Part shown: piece by piece, positions 16,898-26,511 of the stretch
How the letters are laid out: each line of letters opens with the position of its first letter
Position numbering within the stretch: the first letter of the stretch is position 1
Origin: Cohnella laeviribosi DSM 21336
Lineage (GTDB): Bacteria; Bacillota; Bacilli; Paenibacillales; Paenibacillaceae
Assembly: GCF_000378425.1 (NCBI RefSeq)
Contig: NZ_KB899815.1
Coordinates: 63,002 to 127,001 of the forward strand
Length of the DNA: 64,000 bases
Reading direction: 5' to 3'
Notes under the pieces: generated by a model
What the model saw: only the letters and a program-made list of their open reading frames with translations
Told to the model about the DNA's origin: nothing
Database searches by the model: none
Translations under genes and position numbers: made by a program

Positions 16898-17914
16898 TCA
16901 GGTCTGCGGATCGGGCAGAAAATCCGATACCGCATACGTCTCTTTCCTGCCTTTCAAACGAACGAGCGTGTCGACAACGTTTTGCTCCTCCTTGGCGATG
17001 CTCTCCAACAATGGAGCGATGCCGAACAGCTTGCGCTCGAATACCGTCAGCCATTCGATATGCTCCACCTCCGTGCGCGCGCTGAGCCATTCGGCGGCGC
17101 CGTGCACGTCGCTTCCGAACCAATCCTCCTGCCGGAGAATGGCGTCAAGCGCGGCGTCCAGCACCTCCTCGCGCTCCCGGTAATAGCGGGCATTCGCCAA
17201 ATAGACGTCGCGGGTGGCGACCAGTCCGGTTCCGTCTGCCACGATTCGAACACCGGACGATTGCAAACGGCTCAGGACCGGTTCGGCGACGGCCCAAGCA
17301 TCGGCCTTTCGTTCGGCAAACGACCGCTCCATCGCGGACGGCGCAACCGGCGCCAGCTTCATATCCGCAAGCGGCAGGCCGGCGCGATCGGCCATTTGCA
17401 TGAGGAGCAGATGCTCGTTGGTGTAACGCGGGTAAGCGATCTTCTTCCCTTTCAAATCGGAAACATTCAAAATGTCCGATTCCAGCGGAACGACCACCGC
17501 ATAAGCGGCCGGATTCGACGGTTCGGCCGCCAAATAGACGACCGGGTCTCCTTCCTTGAGCAAAAAAGCCGGAACCGCATCGCCCGTCGCCGCCAGATCG
17601 ATCCGGCCTTCGCGGAGGGCGGTTAACGCTTCCGCTTCGTCCGCAAACGCATGCCACTCCGGCGTGACGGACAAGTCCGCGAGCCGGCCGGACAGCTCCC
17701 CCTTTTCCCGCAGGACGGTCATGACCGCATTCGGCTCCGCGTATCCGATCCGGAGCTTGCCCGGGTCGATCGGCGCCGGAACCGCCGCGGAGTTCGTTCC
17801 CCCGGCCGCGAAGCCGCAGCCCGCGCACAGCATCGACAGAGCCATCAGCACGACCGGCACCGCAAGGCCCCGCCGGCGGCGCATCCCGCGGCGCGCTTCC
17901 GGCCCGTCAGGCAT
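16898..17914 (-). CDS. ABC transporter binding lipoprotein (SsuA/NrtT-like), second copy in operon
   Basis: Protein of 338 residues with an Arg-rich N-terminus and a lipobox near MLCAGC. The remainder is a two-lobe solute-binding protein of the NMT1/SsuA group (LRIGYAEPNAVMTVLREKGEL, DLKGKKIAYPRYTNEHLLL). It overlaps the permease gene by 8 bp. It differs strongly from the other binding protein at 18734-19795, so one operon may serve two ligands, or one of them may be a sensor or helper. It is the last gene before the terminator. Confidence 0.82.
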   Translation of the reverse strand: MPDGPEARRGMRRRRGLAVPVVLMALSMLCAGCGFAAGGTNSAAVPAPIDPGKLRIGYAEPNAVMTVLREKGELSGRLADLSVTPEWHAFADEAEALTALREGRIDLAATGDAVPAFLLKEGDPVVYLAAEPSNPAAYAVVVPLESDILNVSDLKGKKIAYPRYTNEHLLLMQMADRAGLPLADMKLAPVAPSAMERSFAERKADAWAVAEPVLSRLQSSGVRIVADGTGLVATRDVYLANARYYREREEVLDAALDAILRQEDWFGSDVHGAAEWLSARTEVEHIEWLTVFERKLFGIAPLLESIAKEEQNVVDTLVRLKGRKETYAVSDFLPDPQT

Positions 17915-18689
17915 TCACGGACAGCCCTTTGCGCCAGCGGGTGAACCGCGCCTCGATCAGCGCCAGAATATAGTTAAGCAGCAAACCGACGAAGGCAAGC
18001 AGGATGATGCCGGCATACATATCCGGTATCTGGAACGTTTCCTGGGAATTCAAAATGTAAAACCCGAGCCCGGCGGATGAGCCGATCATTTCGGCGGCGA
18101 CGAGCGCCGTGATGCAGTAGGCGCCGCCCAGACGGATGCCGGTAAAGATGCTGGGCGAAGCGGCCGGCAGCACAACGCGGAAAAAAATGTACGTCTGCGA
18201 TGCGGCCATGGACCGCGCGGAATCGATCAGCAGCTTGTCGACATGCTTGACCCCGCTGACCGTGTTCAACAGAATCGGCCAGAACGACGCCCAGAAAATA
18301 ATCGCCGTCTTGGACGGTTCGCCGATGCCGAGAAACAGAATGAACACCGGAAACAGCGCGAACGCGGAAATTTGGCGGAACAGTTGCAGCAGCGGATCGA
18401 CAATGGCCTCAAAGCGCTTGAACCAGCCGAGCAACAGCCCGATCAGCGTCCCCGCCGCAATCGCCAGCAGCAAGCCCGACAGCGAGCGCTGCAAACTTTT
18501 CGTCAAATGCACCCATAAATCGCCCGTCGACAACAGCCTGCCGATCGATACGATTACCTGGGACGGCGGGCTCAAATAAGCCGGGTTGACGATACCCAGC
18601 CGGGGCAACAGCTCCCAGACGACGATGAATGCCGCAATGGCAAGTCCGCGATCCGTTATGTTCGTGAACAAGCGATACCCGTTTTTCAT
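17907..18689 (-). CDS. ABC transporter permease, SsuC/TauC type
   Basis: About 260 residues with six transmembrane helices. The EAA-like loop around SARSMAASQTYIFFRVVLPAASPSIFTGIRLG is the ATPase contact site typical of nitrate/sulfonate/taurine permeases. The ATG at 18689 is chosen because GGGAGAGAGG lies 7 nt before it; an ATG 8 codons earlier has no good site. It works with the ATPase at 24173-25093 and the binding proteins on either side. Confidence 0.88.
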   Translation of the reverse strand: MKNGYRLFTNITDRGLAIAAFIVVWELLPRLGIVNPAYLSPPSQVIVSIGRLLSTGDLWVHLTKSLQRSLSGLLLAIAAGTLIGLLLGWFKRFEAIVDPLLQLFRQISAFALFPVFILFLGIGEPSKTAIIFWASFWPILLNTVSGVKHVDKLLIDSARSMAASQTYIFFRVVLPAASPSIFTGIRLGGAYCITALVAAEMIGSSAGLGFYILNSQETFQIPDMYAGIILLAFVGLLLNYILALIEARFTRWRKGLSVNA

Positions 18690-18733
18690 GGACGGCCTCT
18701 CTCCCGTTGTCATGATGGCTTCGCGCCTGCGGC

Positions 18734-19795
18734 TTAAGCATCCGCACCGGCGGTTTGGTCCGGGGACGCTTGACCGGAAGCGAACGGATTGAATTCGTTC
18801 GTGTATACGTCCTTGACGTTGACTTTGCCTTTTGGAATTTTGCCTTCCTGCTCCAAAATGTCGATGTAATACTGGATCGGCGGCTCGGTAATGACGAGAT
18901 TTTCCACGTAAGCGAAGCGGTCGATATATTTGACATCCATGTTCAGCCGCTTGGCAATGATCTTCCGGGCTTCCTCCGGATTCTCGTTGACCCAGTTGGC
19001 CGTCTTGGCGATCGCCGTTACGAAATCTTTAACCGCCTGCGGATGCTCCCGCGCGAACTTGCCGTTGACGCTGTAAGGCGCCATGCCGCCAAGCCCGCCG
19101 TCCAGATCGTAGTCGCTCCACAGCTTGACGAGCTTGTCGTTGTGCTCGGCTTTGCCCGAAAACGGGGCGTGGATGATCGCCAGATCGATGCCGCCCTGCT
19201 CCAGCGTCTGCTCCTGCTTGTCGTCGGGGACGACGAGAAAATTTATTTTGCTGACGTCGACGCCCTGCTCGCGGAACCACTTCTTGGAGACAAACTCGGC
19301 GCACGCTCCGAAGCTGTTGAAGCCGATCGTCTTGCCTTCCAGATCCTTCGGCGTCTTCACGCTGCCGTCGTTGCGGGCGAAATATTTCATATGCGGCGCC
19401 TCTTCCAGCGTCTTGCCGCCCGCCGAGATGACCTTGATATCCGCGCCGCTGGCGATCGCCGAAATCACAAGCGGCACCATGCGCGTCCCGAAATCGAGGT
19501 CTCCCGTGCCGACGAGCGGGATGATCTGCGGAGCGGCCACCTTCCCCACATATTTCGGCCGCGTCGACGTGCCTTCGAAATACCCCAGCTCATCCGCCAG
19601 ATAGACCAGATCAAATCCGGGATTGTCCGGGTACTTGAATTCGACAACCTCCCGGTCTCCGTTATTGGAGCCCGGCGCATCGTCCGCGCCCGCCTCCTTG
19701 CCGGCGCCGCCGCAGCCGGACAGCGCAAGCGCGCCGACGAGAAGCGCGGCCAACGCGATGACCTGCATGCGTAACCGGGACTTCGATCCCTTCAT
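18734..19795 (-). CDS. ABC transporter binding lipoprotein, SsuA/NrtA-like
   Basis: Protein of 353 residues with signal and lipobox LALSGCGG, an acidic linker (about 25-48), then an SsuA-like domain (GFDLVYLADELGYFEG, VGTGDLDFGTRMVPLV, LEGKTIGFNSFGACAEF). This family carries alkanesulfonates, nitrate, taurine, pyrimidine precursors or aromatic acids, so the ligand is not fixed by family alone. It sits between the TlpA gene (23 bp) and the permease gene (44 bp). Confidence 0.88.
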   Translation of the reverse strand: MKGSKSRLRMQVIALAALLVGALALSGCGGAGKEAGADDAPGSNNGDREVVEFKYPDNPGFDLVYLADELGYFEGTSTRPKYVGKVAAPQIIPLVGTGDLDFGTRMVPLVISAIASGADIKVISAGGKTLEEAPHMKYFARNDGSVKTPKDLEGKTIGFNSFGACAEFVSKKWFREQGVDVSKINFLVVPDDKQEQTLEQGGIDLAIIHAPFSGKAEHNDKLVKLWSDYDLDGGLGGMAPYSVNGKFAREHPQAVKDFVTAIAKTANWVNENPEEARKIIAKRLNMDVKYIDRFAYVENLVITEPPIQYYIDILEQEGKIPKGKVNVKDVYTNEFNPFASGQASPDQTAGADA

Positions 19796-19818
19796 GGTTC
19801 AGCTCTCTCCTTTCGCGA

Positions 19819-20394
19819 TTACGAATCAACCTTTCCCTTTTCCCCGTAAAAAACGTGCTCCAGCCGCTTCCGGTCGGTCTGGCCGACCAGGGTCTCGCGC
19901 AAAACGCCGCTTTTGTCGAATACGAGCGAGGTCGGGTAAGCGGCCACCTGCAATCGCTTCGCGGCCGAACCGGTCTCGTCAAGCAGAACGGAAACCTCGC
20001 TTCCGAAACCTTGCGCGAATTCGGCCACCTCTTCCAGGCCGGTTTCGGTAAACGTCAAATTGACGGCCAACACGGCAACATCCGGATGCGCGGCGGCGAA
20101 GGCGGCCAGCTCGGGCATCTCCGCCTTGCACGGCGGGCACCAGCTCGCCCAGAAGTTGACCAGCACCGGCCTGCCCCGGTAATCGGACAGCTTGGCGAGT
20201 CCTCCTTCCAGCCGCTCGAGCGCGAAGTTCTCGGCTTCGGCTTCTTGCCCAGCAGCTTGCGGACCGGACCTGCCGAAATGCATGTAAAGCCCTAAGCCGA
20301 GCAAAACCAGCAGCACGATCACCGCGGCTGCGTTGCGCTTCGTCTCTCCTTGCGAAGCCGCGTCATCCAACAACGCCCGCAGACGCCTTTCCAT
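19819..20394 (-). CDS. TlpA/ResA-like membrane-anchored thioredoxin
   Basis: Protein of 191 residues with an uncleaved N-terminal transmembrane helix (about 22-40) and a thioredoxin fold outside the membrane. The active site is WCPPC (Cys86, Cys89), and the cis-proline loop is AAYPTSLVF. TlpA/ResA proteins reduce disulfides on the outer face, often for cytochrome c or copper-centre maturation. The gene follows the YcnI gene by only 3 bp, which favours a role in keeping thiols or copper sites of the co-encoded proteins reduced. Confidence 0.88.
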   Translation of the reverse strand: MERRLRALLDDAASQGETKRNAAAVIVLLVLLGLGLYMHFGRSGPQAAGQEAEAENFALERLEGGLAKLSDYRGRPVLVNFWASWCPPCKAEMPELAAFAAAHPDVAVLAVNLTFTETGLEEVAEFAQGFGSEVSVLLDETGSAAKRLQVAAYPTSLVFDKSGVLRETLVGQTDRKRLEHVFYGEKGKVDS

Positions 20395-20397
20395 GCT

Positions 20398-21051
20398 TCA
20401 GACGGTCCGCTTGCCGCGCCGCAGCGACACCGAAACCGCAACGAGGCCGGCCGCAAGCGCGAGCAACGCGACATAGAAAGAAGGGGAACGGACGCTTTGC
20501 GAAGACAGCCAACCGGCTCGATCGGCATCCTCCGCTTCCTTGCCGGCGGGGGATGCGGCATGGTGATCGCCCGAGCCCGTTCCGTCCGCGGCAAGCACCT
20601 TCGTCACGGGAGCCGGTTCGTCCGTGCCCGCTCCGCCGACCCATTCGACAACCGAGCCGTCCGCATACGTCTGGTAGGCTTTCCACGCGAGCGAAGAGCC
20701 GGCGTCCTCGTCAACCTGCCCCTGAAGGCGAAATTCTCCGAATTCGCCTTCCTTAAGCCCTCCGTCTACGGCCGTCCACGTAATTCCGGTGTAAGATCCG
20801 TCCCCGTTCGCCGCGAATGCGTAGGTCCATCCCGGCACCGGCTGCACCCGGCTGACGGTTATCCCTTCGGGGAAACGGACTTCCAGCTTGACCGTCGCCG
20901 CCTCCTTTTCGGTCGGAACCCGAACCGTAAAGACTTCGTAAGCTCCCTGTTTCGTTTCCGCCGGCAGCACGGTCACATGCGCGGAGGCGGTACCTGCGAA
21001 CGCCAGCGAAGCCGCCAGCGTAAGAACAGCGATTTTATGCGGAATCCCCAT
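20398..21051 (-). CDS. YcnI-family (DUF1775) copper-binding membrane-anchored protein, copy 2
   Basis: Protein of 217 residues from the ATG at 21051, which has GGAGAGGAGAAAGG upstream. The signal peptide ends TASA, exposing His25 as the mature N-terminus (HVTVLP), the Cu(II) ligand in characterised YcnI. It shares the PGW and SVVEWVGG motifs with copy 1 and ends in one membrane helix and RRGKRTV. It lies between CopC-CopD copy 2 and TlpA within the transporter operon, repeating the YcnI plus CopC-CopD pairing at 7.8-11.8 kb. Confidence 0.9.
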   Translation of the reverse strand: MGIPHKIAVLTLAASLAFAGTASAHVTVLPAETKQGAYEVFTVRVPTEKEAATVKLEVRFPEGITVSRVQPVPGWTYAFAANGDGSYTGITWTAVDGGLKEGEFGEFRLQGQVDEDAGSSLAWKAYQTYADGSVVEWVGGAGTDEPAPVTKVLAADGTGSGDHHAASPAGKEAEDADRAGWLSSQSVRSPSFYVALLALAAGLVAVSVSLRRGKRTV

Positions 21052-21091
21052 CGCCTTTCTCCTCTCCTTTCTTCGCTTGCTTAACTTTTCG

Positions 21092-22714
21092 TTATCTTCT
21101 TTCGTTGTAAAAAACTTTTGTCGTGACGTATTCGTTGTCCGAACGGTCCAGCACGCTGACTTCAAGCCTCCACTTTCCGGCGAACGCCAGGTATTTGCCC
21201 TCCGCGCTGTAATGATGATCGTAAAGCCGCAGCGGACTGCCGTTCGTCTCCACCTGCGAAAGCGGCACCTCGATCGGAGCGATGTCCGGGTTGTCCAGAT
21301 AAGCCAGTTTAAGCGTTACGCGCTTCAGCCCCCCGTCCCGGCCGGTCCCGCCCACCGATACGTTGAATTGGTTGACGGCCCCCGGCTCGTTGGGCGTCAC
21401 GATCGCGGCGATATGGACGCCGTTCACATTTTCGTGCCAAAACAGCGGACCGGTCGCGGCAAGCGGATTAAGAAATGTGAATATTCCGGCAATTGAAACA
21501 ATAAGAGCATGCAGACCGATGTCCAGCGACAGCCAACCGCCGAATCCGGACCATCTTTGCGCGCGAACCCGCCGGCGCAGCCCATAGCCTGCCGCAACGA
21601 CAAGCAGAACGGCCGCCGATTTGGCCAGCAAAAGCTTGCCCCACCATGTCAACGTCAAGTGGCGGAAGCCGTCCGAATACAGGTACGCTGCGGCCAGTCC
21701 GCTGACGGTCAGCAGCGCGACGGCCGCCAACGCCGCCTGGGACAGGGCGGGAAGATGAGGAAGAATGCGTTCCCGCTCCCGTTTGCGCCAGTGAAGGGCG
21801 ACGGCGAGCAGAACGCCCGTCCAGACGCTCGCCGCGAACAGATGAAGCACGTCGAGCGCAAAGGTTGCGGCCGGCACGGCATACCCCATCGCATGGCCGT
21901 TAAGCCCTTTGGCGGCAAACATGAACGCGATCCAGACCGCGTCCGGCAGCCTCCGTTTTCCCGCGACGGCAAAGCCGACCGCGACTGCCGAGAACGCCAG
22001 CAAATAGGACAAGCCGATGGACGTTCCGAGCAGCAGGGAGACTTGTTCCGCCTTCCCGAAGCCGGTTCCCAGACGGAGAAGGTCTTTCCAGGCGATAAGC
22101 GCCAGAGCGGCCGCATGCAGTCCCAGCAGCAGGCGGAAGACGAACCGGAAGCGGGCGGGAGAACCGTCTCCAATCCCGCGGACGAGAACGCGGATTCCGG
22201 CCCAGCCGGTGACCGCAAGCAAGCTGGCATAATAGAAAATCCGGATCAGCCAGTAGGGAACGTTCTTGCCCAGTTCGTGCTCTTCATGAAGCTTGGAAGC
22301 CGAAGTATAGCCGATTTTCGCTTCCGTACGGCTGCCCACCGTGAACACGTAGGACGCTTGCACCGGGTGGCCGTCCGCCGATACGATCCGGTACGAGACG
22401 GTGTAGCTTCCGTCCGGGAGCTTGGGCAGGGCGAGCCGGACGATTTTCCGGTTCCGGTCCATCTCCGCAGGCCGGTCCGCAACCGGCAGTCCCTTTTCGT
22501 CATAAACGCCGATTCGGTACAGCCGGTTTTCCAGCCGCTCGTTAAATGTCAGAACGACCTGATCGGGCGGTTCCGCAAGCCTGCCGTCCGGCGCGGGAGA
22601 AGCCCGAAGCAGCGTCGAATGGGCGGCGGCGCCCGGAACCGAAACCCATAAAAAAACAACGAGGAGAACGAATACCCGGACAAAAACGCTTAACGCTTCG
22701 GGAACGCTCTTCAT
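21092..22714 (-). CDS. CopC-CopD fusion copper protein (YcnJ type), copy 2
   Basis: Protein of 540 residues. The signal peptide ends GAAA, giving His32 at the mature N-terminus of the CopC domain. SADGHPVQASYVF supplies the other copper ligands. About eight CopD helices follow, then a soluble C-terminal domain of about 130 residues. The ATG overlaps the stop of the HpaB-fold gene in ATGA, a direct sign of translational coupling between a copper protein and a monooxygenase-like enzyme. It resembles copy 1 in length and domain order but is clearly diverged. Confidence 0.88.
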   Translation of the reverse strand: MKSVPEALSVFVRVFVLLVVFLWVSVPGAAAHSTLLRASPAPDGRLAEPPDQVVLTFNERLENRLYRIGVYDEKGLPVADRPAEMDRNRKIVRLALPKLPDGSYTVSYRIVSADGHPVQASYVFTVGSRTEAKIGYTSASKLHEEHELGKNVPYWLIRIFYYASLLAVTGWAGIRVLVRGIGDGSPARFRFVFRLLLGLHAAALALIAWKDLLRLGTGFGKAEQVSLLLGTSIGLSYLLAFSAVAVGFAVAGKRRLPDAVWIAFMFAAKGLNGHAMGYAVPAATFALDVLHLFAASVWTGVLLAVALHWRKRERERILPHLPALSQAALAAVALLTVSGLAAAYLYSDGFRHLTLTWWGKLLLAKSAAVLLVVAAGYGLRRRVRAQRWSGFGGWLSLDIGLHALIVSIAGIFTFLNPLAATGPLFWHENVNGVHIAAIVTPNEPGAVNQFNVSVGGTGRDGGLKRVTLKLAYLDNPDIAPIEVPLSQVETNGSPLRLYDHHYSAEGKYLAFAGKWRLEVSVLDRSDNEYVTTKVFYNERR

Positions 22715-24141
22715 CCGATATGCCGCGCCACCCGGTCCAGCAGCGCCTGCTTGTCGTATTCCGCATATTGCGCCGCGTACGTTCGCGCCGGGTCTCCCGC
22801 ATAGAAGCGTTCATAAAGCTCGTGCCGGGCCCCCAGCCGGCTGCCCGCCAAATCCCAGGCCGTCTTGAGCAGCTTGACTCTCTCCTCGGCGTCGCGGTCG
22901 GCTCCCCGGTAAATGTTGCGCAGCCGGGAACCGAGCGGACCGTGCAGCTCGGCCAGCGTTGACGGCACCTGCAGCATGCCCGCTCCCGACAGCAGCTGCA
23001 AAATCTCGATGGCCCGGGGATAATAACGGTTGCCCAAATTTTTGGCGGTGACCAGCGGCTGAAGCTCGGGCTCCCACACGCCGTCGGGATGAAGCGCGCA
23101 GCGGTGCTCGGCGGACTTCAGCAGCGCTTCGACCGTCTCCAGTTGGAGAAACAGCTCGGCCAGCTTATCCTGAACATGGGAGAACCGGGCGATGCCGATC
23201 GATGCGGCCAGTTCCACGCCGACGGCGGCTACGAACTCCAGCTTGCTTGCCAGCCGGGCAACGTTCTCATGGAGGCTGATCGCGCTCACGAACCGATCCG
23301 AACGGATCTTCCAAATCGCCTCGGGATTGTTCCGGATGAATACCCGATCCCACGGGATCAGCGCATCGTCGAAGACGAGAACGGCGTCCATCTCGTCGTA
23401 GCGCGAGCTAAGCGGGTGATCTTCGGTTCGTTCGGACGCGAACGGCTCGCGGCAAATCAAATGCACGCCCGGATGGCTGGCGGGGATGGCGAACATCACG
23501 GCGTAGTGCTTTTCCTCGGCTGTCTTCGGGCTGTGCGGAGAGACCATAATTTCATCCATATACGGCCCGCCGGTCGCGATCATTTTGGCGCCCCTGACCA
23601 CGATCCCTTCTTCGGTTTCCTTGACGACCCGCAGCGCCGTATACAAATCGCCGAGCTCGGATGCGAGCTTCGTCCGGTCGATTTGCGGATCGTGCCCCGC
23701 CGCCGTAAGCAGCAGGTCGCGGTCCCTCAAGTCGGCGTAATAACGGGCGATTTTGTCCGGAAAATGAGGTTCTTCTTGCCGGATCAGATTACTCCGGATA
23801 TGCCAGCCCGTCAATTGGGCGCGATAAAATCCCGCCACCCGGCTCATGACCCCGAACGTCGCATCCGACCAGACGCGGAAGGAACGTCCTCTTCGGAAAA
23901 TATCGTCCCGTTCTCTCGGAACGAGAAAAGCCAGATTGGCCTTTGCCCCCGTTTCCGTCGTAAAGGTCAACTCGGAGCTGCGGACCGGATCGTCCTGCAA
24001 ATCCAACAGCGCCGCCACCGAGCGGACCGTTCCGGCAAAGGCCGGATGGCGGGCAAGATCGCGAACGACTTCACCGTCAAGCCAAACGTTACGCTGCTGC
24101 GCGAGTCTCTGCAAATAACGGCTGCCCGACGTTGCGCTCAA
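22711..24141 (-). CDS. HpaB-family flavin-dependent monooxygenase-like protein
   Basis: Protein of 476 residues, the usual length for the 4-hydroxyphenylacetate 3-hydroxylase oxygenase group (acyl-CoA dehydrogenase fold). The order is an N-terminal helical domain, a central beta-barrel (VKETEEGIVVRGAKMIATGGPYMDEI), and a C-terminal four-helix domain with LVTAKNLGNRYYPRAIEILQLLSG. The C-terminal ERFYAGDPARTY motif is typical of the family. Members use reduced FAD or FMN from a separate reductase to hydroxylate phenols or halophenols; the substrate here is unknown. No reductase is in the operon; the SsuE-like protein at 14698-15249 is a candidate. Confidence 0.82.
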   Translation of the reverse strand: MSATSGSRYLQRLAQQRNVWLDGEVVRDLARHPAFAGTVRSVAALLDLQDDPVRSSELTFTTETGAKANLAFLVPRERDDIFRRGRSFRVWSDATFGVMSRVAGFYRAQLTGWHIRSNLIRQEEPHFPDKIARYYADLRDRDLLLTAAGHDPQIDRTKLASELGDLYTALRVVKETEEGIVVRGAKMIATGGPYMDEIMVSPHSPKTAEEKHYAVMFAIPASHPGVHLICREPFASERTEDHPLSSRYDEMDAVLVFDDALIPWDRVFIRNNPEAIWKIRSDRFVSAISLHENVARLASKLEFVAAVGVELAASIGIARFSHVQDKLAELFLQLETVEALLKSAEHRCALHPDGVWEPELQPLVTAKNLGNRYYPRAIEILQLLSGAGMLQVPSTLAELHGPLGSRLRNIYRGADRDAEERVKLLKTAWDLAGSRLGARHELYERFYAGDPARTYAAQYAEYDKQALLDRVARHIG

Positions 24142-24172
24142 GTCGCTTCACCTCTTATGCTCCCTATGTTCA

Positions 24173-25093
24173 CTATCCGGTAATCCGTTCCGGCACGGCG
24201 CCGGCCGGCTCCGCCGCTGCCGCCGGCTTGGATGTCTCCGAGGCCTGCGCTTCTGTCGCCGCCGTTCCCGCCGCCGAGGAAGCGGAGGCGCTAAGGCGCA
24301 GCGTTTGCTCCACTTCGTCCTTCAGCACCGTCCAGGCCCGCTGCCGCAGCTTGACGAAAGCTTCGGAATTGCGGATCTCGGCGGAACGGGGCCGCTCCAA
24401 CGGAACATCGATGATCTCTTTGACGCGGCCGGGCCTTGCGGTCATCACCGCCACCCGATCGGCAAGGAAGATCGCTTCGTCCAGGCTGTGCGTAATAAAA
24501 ACGATCGTCACCTTGCGGGCTTCCCAAATCCGCAGAAGCTCCGACTGCAAAATCTCCCGCGTCTGCGCATCGAGCGCCGCGAACGGCTCATCCATGAGCA
24601 GGACGTCGGGTTCGTAGGCGAGCGCCCGGGCGATCGCCACCCGCTGCCGCATCCCGCCGGAAAGCTCGTGCGGATACCGGTGCTCGAACGATTGCAGGCC
24701 GACAAGCTGGATATAGTCGAGCGCGATCCGTCTGCGCTCCTTTTTGCGGACGCCGCGGATGTGCAGGCCGACCTCGACGTTTTGAAGCACGGTTTTCCAC
24801 GGAAACAGAGCATAACCTTGAAAAACGACGCCGTGCTTGGGATTGACCCCGTTGACCGGCTCCCCGCCGATCGCCAGCTTCCCGCCCGATTGGCGCGCCA
24901 AGCCGGCCAGGATGTTCAAGAAAGTGGACTTGCCGCAGCCGCTCGGGCCGAGAATGGCCAGAAATTCTCCCTCCCGGACGGAAAGGGAAAATTCCTTCAG
25001 CACGGACACGGTCTCCTTCCGCCCCGATTCGTTTCTTACCGTATAGCGCATCTCCAGGTTTTCGGCCGTTATTTTGTCCGTCAATTCGCTCAC
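24173..25093 (-). CDS. ABC transporter ATPase, SsuB/TauB type
   Basis: Protein of 306 residues. Walker A is GPSGCGKST, the Q-loop is VFQGYALFPW, the ABC signature is LSGGMRQR, Walker B is VLLMDEP and the H-loop is ITHSLDEA. A C-terminal Ala/Ser/Thr/Glu-rich extension of about 45 residues is not needed for ATPase function and looks disordered. The start overlaps the stop of the upstream gene by 4 bp. It powers the permease at 17907-18689, from which it is separated by the HpaB, Cop, YcnI and TlpA genes, an unusual split. Confidence 0.92.
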   Translation of the reverse strand: MSELTDKITAENLEMRYTVRNESGRKETVSVLKEFSLSVREGEFLAILGPSGCGKSTFLNILAGLARQSGGKLAIGGEPVNGVNPKHGVVFQGYALFPWKTVLQNVEVGLHIRGVRKKERRRIALDYIQLVGLQSFEHRYPHELSGGMRQRVAIARALAYEPDVLLMDEPFAALDAQTREILQSELLRIWEARKVTIVFITHSLDEAIFLADRVAVMTARPGRVKEIIDVPLERPRSAEIRNSEAFVKLRQRAWTVLKDEVEQTLRLSASASSAAGTAATEAQASETSKPAAAAEPAGAVPERITG

Positions 25094-26286
25094 CTCCCTT
25101 GCGGTTCGTACGCCTGAGCGTCGATCGCCCGGCGAAAAGCCCGGTAGCGTTCGCGAAGCTGATGCTGCGGGTAATGCCGGTACAGCTCTTTCGAGCGCTC
25201 GATCGGATCCCCGAAGGCGAAGCGCTCGTGCTGCCTGCGCCTTGCGGCCTCTTCATCGCCCGCAAGGCGCCAGGCCAAACGGCGAATGTCGTGCTCGCGG
25301 GATTTCGCACGGTGAAATTCCGATCGTTCGGAAGGCGCGGCGAAATCCGGCGCGTCCAGCAGTTCCGTCCCTCCGATCCGGTGAATGAGCTCGGACGCGC
25401 GGCGGTAACCGTCGCCGCCGACCCGCTTGGCGGCCGCGACCGGCACCGGCGCAGGCAGCAGCGCCCCCGCCGGACTCCGTTCGGCTTCCAGCTCGGCGGC
25501 GTAAAGCAGCGCTTTAAGCGACTCGAGCTCCTGAATCAAAAGGCCGAGCTCGTATTGAATGTCGGGGTCCTTGCTCAAGCCCGTTTGATCAGCCAGGGCG
25601 AATGCGGTCCCCGTCAACAGCTCGAGGGCGTCCAACTGCCTGGCCGCCCACTGGTAGCCCGCCAGCGCCTGCACGAACGGGTGCGAGCGGATCAGCTCGG
25701 CTCCGGCCGCGTTGCGGTCCAGCAAAATTCGCTCCTGCGGAATGAACACCCGGTCGTAAAGGACGGTCGTCCACGACGAAGTTTCCGGGTGGAGCCTGAT
25801 CTTAAGCCCCTCGCTGCCGGTCGGCACCAGCGCAAGCGTCGTGGGCGCTTCGTCCCCGTATTCCCGGATCCAAACGAGCAGTTGCCCGGCATGGGCGGCG
25901 TCGGCGGCAAACGTCTGGCTGCCGCTTACCGCGATCCCCTCCGAATTCCGCTCGACGACGGGAATCGTTCCGTTTGCCGAACGAAACGGCCGGATCCGCT
26001 GCAGCGAAGTCGTCATCAGGCCGAGCTCCTTGCGGCTTCGCTCGTAAATCAGCTGAGCGGACAGCGGAAAACGGGCGATATCCCGAAACGGCTGCGTCTC
26101 TTTGTGCTCGAACCAGCCGGCGAGCAAGGCGTGCGCATAATCCGCCAGCCCTTCGCCGAAAGCCGACTGTCCGCCGTGAAGGCCGAACAGCCCGAGCCGC
26201 CTTTCCTTCAGTTCCTCCAATGTGTGCGGCAACGAATACGCCCGCTCGATCCAATACCGATCGGATTTCTCGCGTCGTTCAGTCAT
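25090..26286 (-). CDS. Divergent HpaB-fold (acyl-CoA dehydrogenase-like) protein, first gene of operon
   Basis: Protein of 398 residues, about 80 shorter than the other HpaB-fold protein. Shared marks are the central barrel segment (GIAVSGSQTFAADAAHAGQLLVW), a FIPQERILLDRN segment matching the partner's LIPWDRVFIRNN, and a C-terminal ERFAFGDPIERS tail. It is strongly diverged elsewhere, so it may be a second subunit, or an oxygenase for a different step, or may have lost flavin chemistry. It is the first gene after the promoter and leader hairpin, and overlaps the ATPase gene by 4 bp. Confidence 0.65.
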   Translation of the reverse strand: MTERREKSDRYWIERAYSLPHTLEELKERRLGLFGLHGGQSAFGEGLADYAHALLAGWFEHKETQPFRDIARFPLSAQLIYERSRKELGLMTTSLQRIRPFRSANGTIPVVERNSEGIAVSGSQTFAADAAHAGQLLVWIREYGDEAPTTLALVPTGSEGLKIRLHPETSSWTTVLYDRVFIPQERILLDRNAAGAELIRSHPFVQALAGYQWAARQLDALELLTGTAFALADQTGLSKDPDIQYELGLLIQELESLKALLYAAELEAERSPAGALLPAPVPVAAAKRVGGDGYRRASELIHRIGGTELLDAPDFAAPSERSEFHRAKSREHDIRRLAWRLAGDEEAARRRQHERFAFGDPIERSKELYRHYPQHQLRERYRAFRRAIDAQAYEPQGR

Positions 26287-26341
26287 GATGCTTCCCCCTT
26301 CGCTCCACGTCCGGTTTCATCGTCATCGGCTCCCAACAAAA

Positions 26342-26384
26342 AGAGGTTTTCGCAACGGCGCCGGATGCCGTCGCAAAAACCTCT
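26342..26384 (-). terminator. Leader terminator-like hairpin before the nine-gene operon
   Basis: 18-bp arms (26342-26359 with 26367-26384, 16 matches) around a 7-nt loop, followed on the minus strand by TTTTTG. It lies after the promoter at 26439-26467 and about 55 nt before the first start codon, so it can act as an attenuator. It is also the only terminator-like structure behind glcF. Just before it is CTAGT-2-ACTAG (26383-26394). Confidence 0.75.
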
Positions 26385-26438
26385 AGTCAACTAGTCGGCC
26401 TATTAACTTCACTTTTCCAAGCGGTTTAGTATGATTGA

Positions 26439-26467
26439 ATCATATACCCCAAAAGCTGTGCAGTCAA
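26439..26467 (-). promoter_or_regulatory. Sigma-A promoter of the SsuABC-HpaB-Cop operon
   Basis: TTGACT (26462-26467) and TATGAT (26439-26444) are separated by exactly 17 bp on the minus strand, in the gap between the glcF stop and the first operon gene. The predicted transcript start near 26432 gives a leader of about 145 nt containing the hairpin at 26342-26384. Confidence 0.8.
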
Positions 26468-26511
26468 CCCTGAAAATTCCAATTCCAACCGATCGCCCGG
26501 TTCGGGAGCGT

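Follow-up and report, generated by a model that had tools for sequence, protein, structure and literature searches.

Among the closest described counterparts of the arrangement analysed here are bacterial antitermination systems in which a protein acts on an RNA hairpin ahead of a terminator. In the LicT/SacY/BglG systems a weak hairpin, the RAT element, of about 30 nt with internal loops, precedes the terminator and overlaps its 5' arm; the regulator gene is often upstream, with antiterminator genes such as licT lying directly before their element. In the ANTAR systems (NasR, AmiR, EutV) the protein clamps a hairpin beside the terminator, and the target RNA comprises two hairpins with six-base loops that carry A at position 1 and G at position 4. 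Sulfur genes of Firmicutes, for their part, use SAM riboswitches, and in Bacillus subtilis the ssu genes are reportedly regulated at both initiation and termination, as the title of a 2001 paper by van der Ploeg, Barone and Leisinger (Mol Microbiol 39:1356) has it. Earlier work on bacilli also predicted an attenuator, located ahead of a sulfonate transporter operon and of a single unknown gene; the passages describing it give neither a sequence nor a factor, and it may be the same element as that reported below.

Here we describe the leader of a nine-gene operon in a 64,000-nt window (the whole stretch of DNA that was analysed) of the genome of Cohnella laeviribosi DSM 21336. Like RAT, its element is a weak hairpin before a terminator whose 5' arm it overlaps; unlike RAT, the 34 elements that we aligned consist of a single 4-bp stem with a tetraloop. 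A protein-clamped hairpin beside the terminator is likewise proposed here as for the ANTAR systems, but only a single hairpin is conserved and its four-base loop ends in A in most rows of the alignment. In principle the leader would work like those controlled by LicT or NasR, but its RNA element and the candidate protein fall outside every family tested. Judging from sequence comparison, we read the leader as an attenuator of an organosulfur-scavenging, sulfur-starvation regulon that would work by conditional antitermination through the conserved element, and place the probability of this reading at roughly 0.8.

The operon and its leader

On the minus strand of the window, the interval from the glcF stop codon (26512) to the ATG of the first gene of the operon (26286) contains a promoter, the element and a terminator, in this order. 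The promoter is of the sigma-A type (TTGACT-17-TATGAT; 26467-26439, minus strand; score 10/12); a scan of 6 kb found three promoter-like sites, with 0.9 +/- 1.3 in shuffled sequence. The terminator, supported by the terminator scan, folding and the offset comparison given below, is an 18-bp intrinsic hairpin (26384-26342, minus strand) of sequence AGAGGTTTTTGCGACGGC-ATCCGGC-GCCGTTGCGAAAACCTCT, followed by the T tract TTTTGTTGGG (26332-26341, minus strand; terminator scan). It folds at -29.9 kcal/mol, compared with -11.5 +/- 2.3 for shuffles (z -7.9, with 0 of 200 as good). Terminator-like sites as such are not above chance in 6 kb (9 vs 7.5 +/- 2.4 in shuffles); the leader terminator has 18 pairs and the next best site of that scan has seven. 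The promoter and hairpin are about 48-55 nt apart, and a further 55 nt separate the hairpin from the start codon. All these features, spacings included, bear out the original prediction, from which the conserved 4-bp hairpin element abutting the terminator (26397-26380) was absent. The leader is present once in its own genome.

Two other features lie around the promoter. A perfect 7-1-7 palindrome visible in the sequence, TATGATT-N-AATCATA (26430-26444), covers the -10 region and has a near-identical copy in P. naphthalenovorans (L068); it is a possible operator, with a spacing that we take to be reminiscent of Fur-family sites. Immediately 5' of the -35 is TTGGAATTGGAATTTT (26474-26491, minus strand), and TCGGAATAATTTGAATT spans the promoter in the ssu leaders of the B. 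subtilis group; these sequences perhaps represent a putative CymR-type site, an idea raised by TTGGAATTGGAATT just 5' of the promoter and for which a literature search gave nothing.

The nine genes, all on the minus strand, encode an HpaB-like flavin monooxygenase (HpaB1, the first gene; 25090-26286), an ABC transporter ATPase of the sulfonate/taurine/nitrate type (24173-25093), a second HpaB-like monooxygenase (HpaB2; 22711-24141), a CopC/CopD-like membrane protein (21092-22714), a YcnI-like (DUF1775) protein (20398-21165), a TlpA/ResA-like thiol-disulfide oxidoreductase (19819-20394), an NMT1/SsuA-type substrate-binding protein (SBP1; 18734-19795), an ABC permease (17907-18713) and a second SsuA-type substrate-binding protein (SBP2; 16898-17914). 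The CopC/CopD-, YcnI- and TlpA-like proteins (19819-22714) are thereby embedded in a sulfonate-type operon; among the mapped relatives, TlpA is common only to G289 and P. naphthalenovorans, with YcnI also found in C. thailandensis. The operon (16898-26286) is located between LacI and glcF. A related genome (G002, compared via L072) has the same flanks in the order LacI-glcF-glcD-GntR-NrdB and no operon; since this order exists without it, the operon seems to have been inserted behind glcF, or else lost in G002.

Relatives of HpaB1 are found in 10 of 394 genomes of the family, the window's own counted. A related-locus search with HpaB1 as the query returned nothing, and a search with SBP1 in the class sample returned only the own genome; an SBP1 alignment search gave 80 loci, 71 of them proteobacterial. 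Three of the SBP1 matches, in P. naphthalenovorans, P. pasadenensis and Peribacillus asahii, together with the 10 family genomes make up the 13 HpaB1 operons compared here. The SBP1 matches in C. thailandensis (L033) and P. pasadenensis (L037) each have one in-frame stop (TGA and TAG, respectively) in the aligned stretch.

The hairpin, which the original prediction expected to accompany the operon, is kept together with the element ahead of the first gene in 10 of these 13 operons. HpaB1 is that first gene in five (the window, G289, P. naphthalenovorans, P. pasadenensis and P. asahii), and in each of the five leaders a promoter at the corresponding place is followed by a terminator hairpin; the promoter reads TTGACA-17-TATGAT in P. 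naphthalenovorans, TTGACT-17-TAGAAT in P. asahii and TTGACA with a weaker -10 in P. pasadenensis. The P. asahii leader (L097, 8518-8665) has two element-plus-terminator units in tandem. In the other five (G280, G298, G296, G348 and G301) an AprA-like gene comes first and is itself preceded by the element and terminator. In two further clusters (G354, G277) the element is present at another place than before the first gene, and none was found in the C. thailandensis operon.

The conserved hairpin and its pairing

Pattern scans, pairing tests and alignment converge on the element CGA-CUAG-UUGA-CUAG-AGG (26397-26380, minus strand), with arms at 26394-26391 and 26386-26383 and the loop at 26390-26387. 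Its 3' arm and the 5' arm of the terminator overlap at 26384-26383, and the hairpin alone has a folding energy of -1.5 kcal/mol. The motif recurs across Bacilli as YRA-(4 bp)-tetraloop-AG, or more fully as YRA-CYRG-NNNA-CYRG-AGR.

Sequence comparison establishes that pairing of the arms is what is conserved. In a sequence-only screen of all collected loci, which demanded a terminator but not pairing and merged sites sharing 45 identical bases, 51 of 60 distinct sites are fully Watson-Crick paired, against 10.8 expected when the 3' arms are redealt. Nine arm pairs occur there, including CCAG/CTGG, CTGG/CCAG, CTAG/CTAG, TCGG/CCGA, TTAG/CTAA and CCAT/ATGG; one of the nine (in L085) resembles a chance site, and CCCG/CGGG is a further variant that keeps complementarity. 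In the alignment of 34 elements, which are chosen examples with several taken from scans that demanded pairing, 99.3% of cells are paired vs 81.3% after shuffling and 12-49% when the partner is slid by 1-3 columns. Compensatory changes, i.e. changes on both sides, occur in all four pairs of this alignment.

The element is also fixed in position relative to the terminator. With strong hairpins counted anywhere from -30 to +60 of the element, one starts at +9 to +15 in 57 of 62 sites (sd 0.96 nt), and the terminator start in these locked sites is at, or overlaps, the 3' arm of the element, whereas the distance from promoter to element is variable (sd 38). Such a fixed offset to the terminator combined with a variable promoter distance is the geometry of an antiterminator rather than of a DNA operator. 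Among pattern matches with paired arms a terminator is present in 35 of 59 (of 65 matches, five were not fetched and one tandem copy shares a locus), vs none of the 20 examined of 32 matches with unpaired arms (L230 being left out of the unpaired set). The remaining 24 of the 59 paired matches have no terminator by the score used, so the short pattern alone must also catch chance sites or variants. The pattern CRACYNGNNNACNRGAG has 97 matches in 13 genomes vs 39 for the reversed pattern, and CGACYRGNNNACYRGAG has matches in 99 of 299 Bacilli; the 71 proteobacterial loci that encode an SBP1 homologue (1.44 Mb) contain no element with a terminator, and three Markov controls (0.86 Mb) contain none either.

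Organosulfur genes and the Bacillus ssu leaders

The genes that follow the element point to a common theme. Among 20 proteins encoded directly 3' of it and examined with NCBIfam, those above the curated cut-offs are SsuD (L218), SfnG (L203, L238) and NtaA/DmoA monooxygenases (L201, L236); below cut-off are SsuD-like, DszC/SfnB-like, TauD-like, SsuA-like, MetQ-like and MetN-like proteins and ATPases of the sulfonate/taurine/nitrate type. For four of the 20 no connection with sulfur is apparent: an RbsB-like protein, an aldo-keto reductase, a LysR protein and one without a family (L232). No terminator was found, by the score used, with the elements ahead of the L203 and L206 genes. Elsewhere the element is followed by SsuE (L321) and by a TauD-like protein (L219). 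The genome of the window contains three further copies. One (C45) precedes an SsuD-like monooxygenase, another (C52) a LysR gene that is followed by a cystine-type binding protein, and the third (C47), with the variant arms TTAG/CTAA, precedes genes for a lipoprotein and an NtaA/DmoA monooxygenase. In P. asahii (L097, 19838-19900) another element with its terminator has no clear gene behind it and yezD nearby, and is perhaps a remnant.

The same layout of a strong promoter, then the element, then a terminator, before genes of the sulfonate type, is seen in Bacillus ssu leaders. In the genus that includes G583 the ssu promoter was matched in 17 of 20 regions upstream of ssuD-type genes, and all 17 of these leaders, apparently including that of B. 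subtilis 168 (G912), have [TC]GATCGG-NNNN-CCGAAGG directly before the terminator. This version of the element differs from that of the window in its outer pair, U-A, and in its loop, ACCG, TCAA or ACCA. As these leaders share both element and terminator, the hairpin of the window very probably represents a switch of this type as well. Conditional antitermination, which the original prediction had put forward, is thus strongly supported by comparison: the layout accompanies the operon where no glcDF lies upstream and recurs before other organosulfur genes. The literature searched, including passages of PMC2965389, PMC4342826 and PMC10708946, contained no account that we recognised of the element as a shared motif or of its factor.

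Proposed mechanism, candidate factor and alternatives

By default, RNA polymerase starting at the strong promoter would stop at the 18-bp terminator. The 4-bp hairpin with its fixed flanks would form just ahead of the terminator, sharing bases at the foot of the 5' arm, and would alone be far too weak to matter (about -1.5 vs -30 kcal/mol). We infer a binding factor, a sulfur signal and a direction of control: a trans-acting RNA-binding factor would clamp the element when sulfur is short, the clamped element would hold the foot of the terminator open beside the U tract, and polymerase would then read into the nine genes. A protein is the probable kind of factor, because a hairpin of this energy cannot outcompete such a terminator unaided and because metabolite aptamers usually need more than some 18 conserved bases. 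A point against the mechanism is that element and terminator usually overlap by only about two bases, which would make base pairing by itself a weak means of exclusion.

The most likely candidate would be YezD (DUF2292), a protein of roughly 60-100 aa whose genes were first noticed beside elements. In the sample of 299 genomes, PF10055 is present in 59 of 73 with a paired element vs 59 of 226 others (Fisher p 1e-16, the genomes being interrelated); genomes with only unpaired matches are at background (8 of 26). Among 42 genomes whose element loci were chosen from pattern matches before the link to YezD was known, YezD is present in every one of the 19 that score at least 18 for the terminator, vs 13 of 23 others; with the score lowered to 12 the count is 23 of 24, G586 being the one without it. 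Fifteen genomes encode yezD on the strand of the element and directly before it, as licT is before its own, with 60-147 nt from the end of the yezD domain to the element, and in 5 of 16 loci chosen by YezD alone, scanned with pairing demanded, the element is just behind yezD. A single-sequence model of YezD predicts a helix-strand-strand fold at low confidence (pLDDT 58). A second YezD type with the motif VQDGxVIQLEKxEK (L336, L337, L340, L342-L347, L351) is mostly without a nearby element, L343 excepted, the two types possibly having different functions.

That antitermination is real and its factor another, with YezD just one more sulfur gene of the regulon, has an even chance of being correct. 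In the window's own genome yezD is behind sulfate-transport genes and no element was found near it; in some genomes the element comes first and yezD follows; in B. subtilis it adjoins a sulfate transporter (PMC7953295). A PDB search with the YezD sequence found nothing convincing, its RNA binding being a proposal, and the literature searched, including the passages of PMC7953295 seen, yielded no description of YezD as a regulator. Co-occurrence was counted for YezD alone, and the correlation may reflect sulfur genes in general. Against this stand the presence of YezD in every sampled genome with an element and a strong terminator and its gene directly before the element in 15 genomes. On balance, the identification of YezD with the factor acting on the element falls slightly short of an even chance, and more tentatively still we propose YezD as the founder of a new family of antitermination proteins that are very small and bind RNA; it would bind the CYRG hairpin and run the organosulfur regulon of Bacilli, termination control of ssu included.

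A leader that itself senses a sulfur metabolite would fit the attenuator architecture and the use of SAM riboswitches by Firmicutes sulfur genes, but conservation is confined to some 18 nt that contain a single 4-bp hairpin, the region from promoter to element has no common fold evident by eye, and Rfam 15 has no family above the gathering threshold in either the window or 20 element loci, the low-threshold matches in the leader being at chance level. A small-molecule riboswitch is accordingly very improbable, and a known one was rejected on the negative Rfam searches (SAM, T-box and others).

Very improbable is the reading that the hairpin is a plain glcDF terminator, with the promoter incidental and the operon read from elsewhere. 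The hairpin does lie 128 nt past the stop codon of glcF, and between that codon and the operon the scan found no second terminator-like site; however, the promoter-element-terminator layout is shared by operon relatives that have no glcF upstream, a DNA search with the leader across 36 other genomes of the genus, 32 of which have glcF, gave no match, and the post-glcF sequence inspected in G002 and G034 holds no copy of the element. The glcF reading was rejected on the leaders of these relatives. Because 10 of 13 related operons have the element and terminator before their first gene, comparison assigns the hairpin to the operon and not to glcDF; ending glcDF read-through, the other role that the original prediction had allowed, is not its main one, although in the genome of the window the terminator would additionally stop read-through from glcF. 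A repressor or activator binding the inverted repeat in DNA, for which the palindromic arms of some elements (CTAG, CCGG) and the nearby promoter might speak, is just as hard to credit, given that arm sequences vary with complementarity kept (CCAG/CTGG, CCCG/CGGG, TCGG/CCGA, CCAT/ATGG, TTAG/CTAA), that position is locked to the terminator and not to the promoter, and that the element is also found between yezD and the next gene.

Conditional antitermination through the conserved element would lead from one odd terminator in a draft genome to a regulon-wide organosulfur switch in Gram-positive soil bacteria. It defines an RNA element without a match in Rfam 15, offers a possible sequence-level cause for the way termination is controlled at ssu in a model organism, and provides the uncharacterised family DUF2292 with a testable function.
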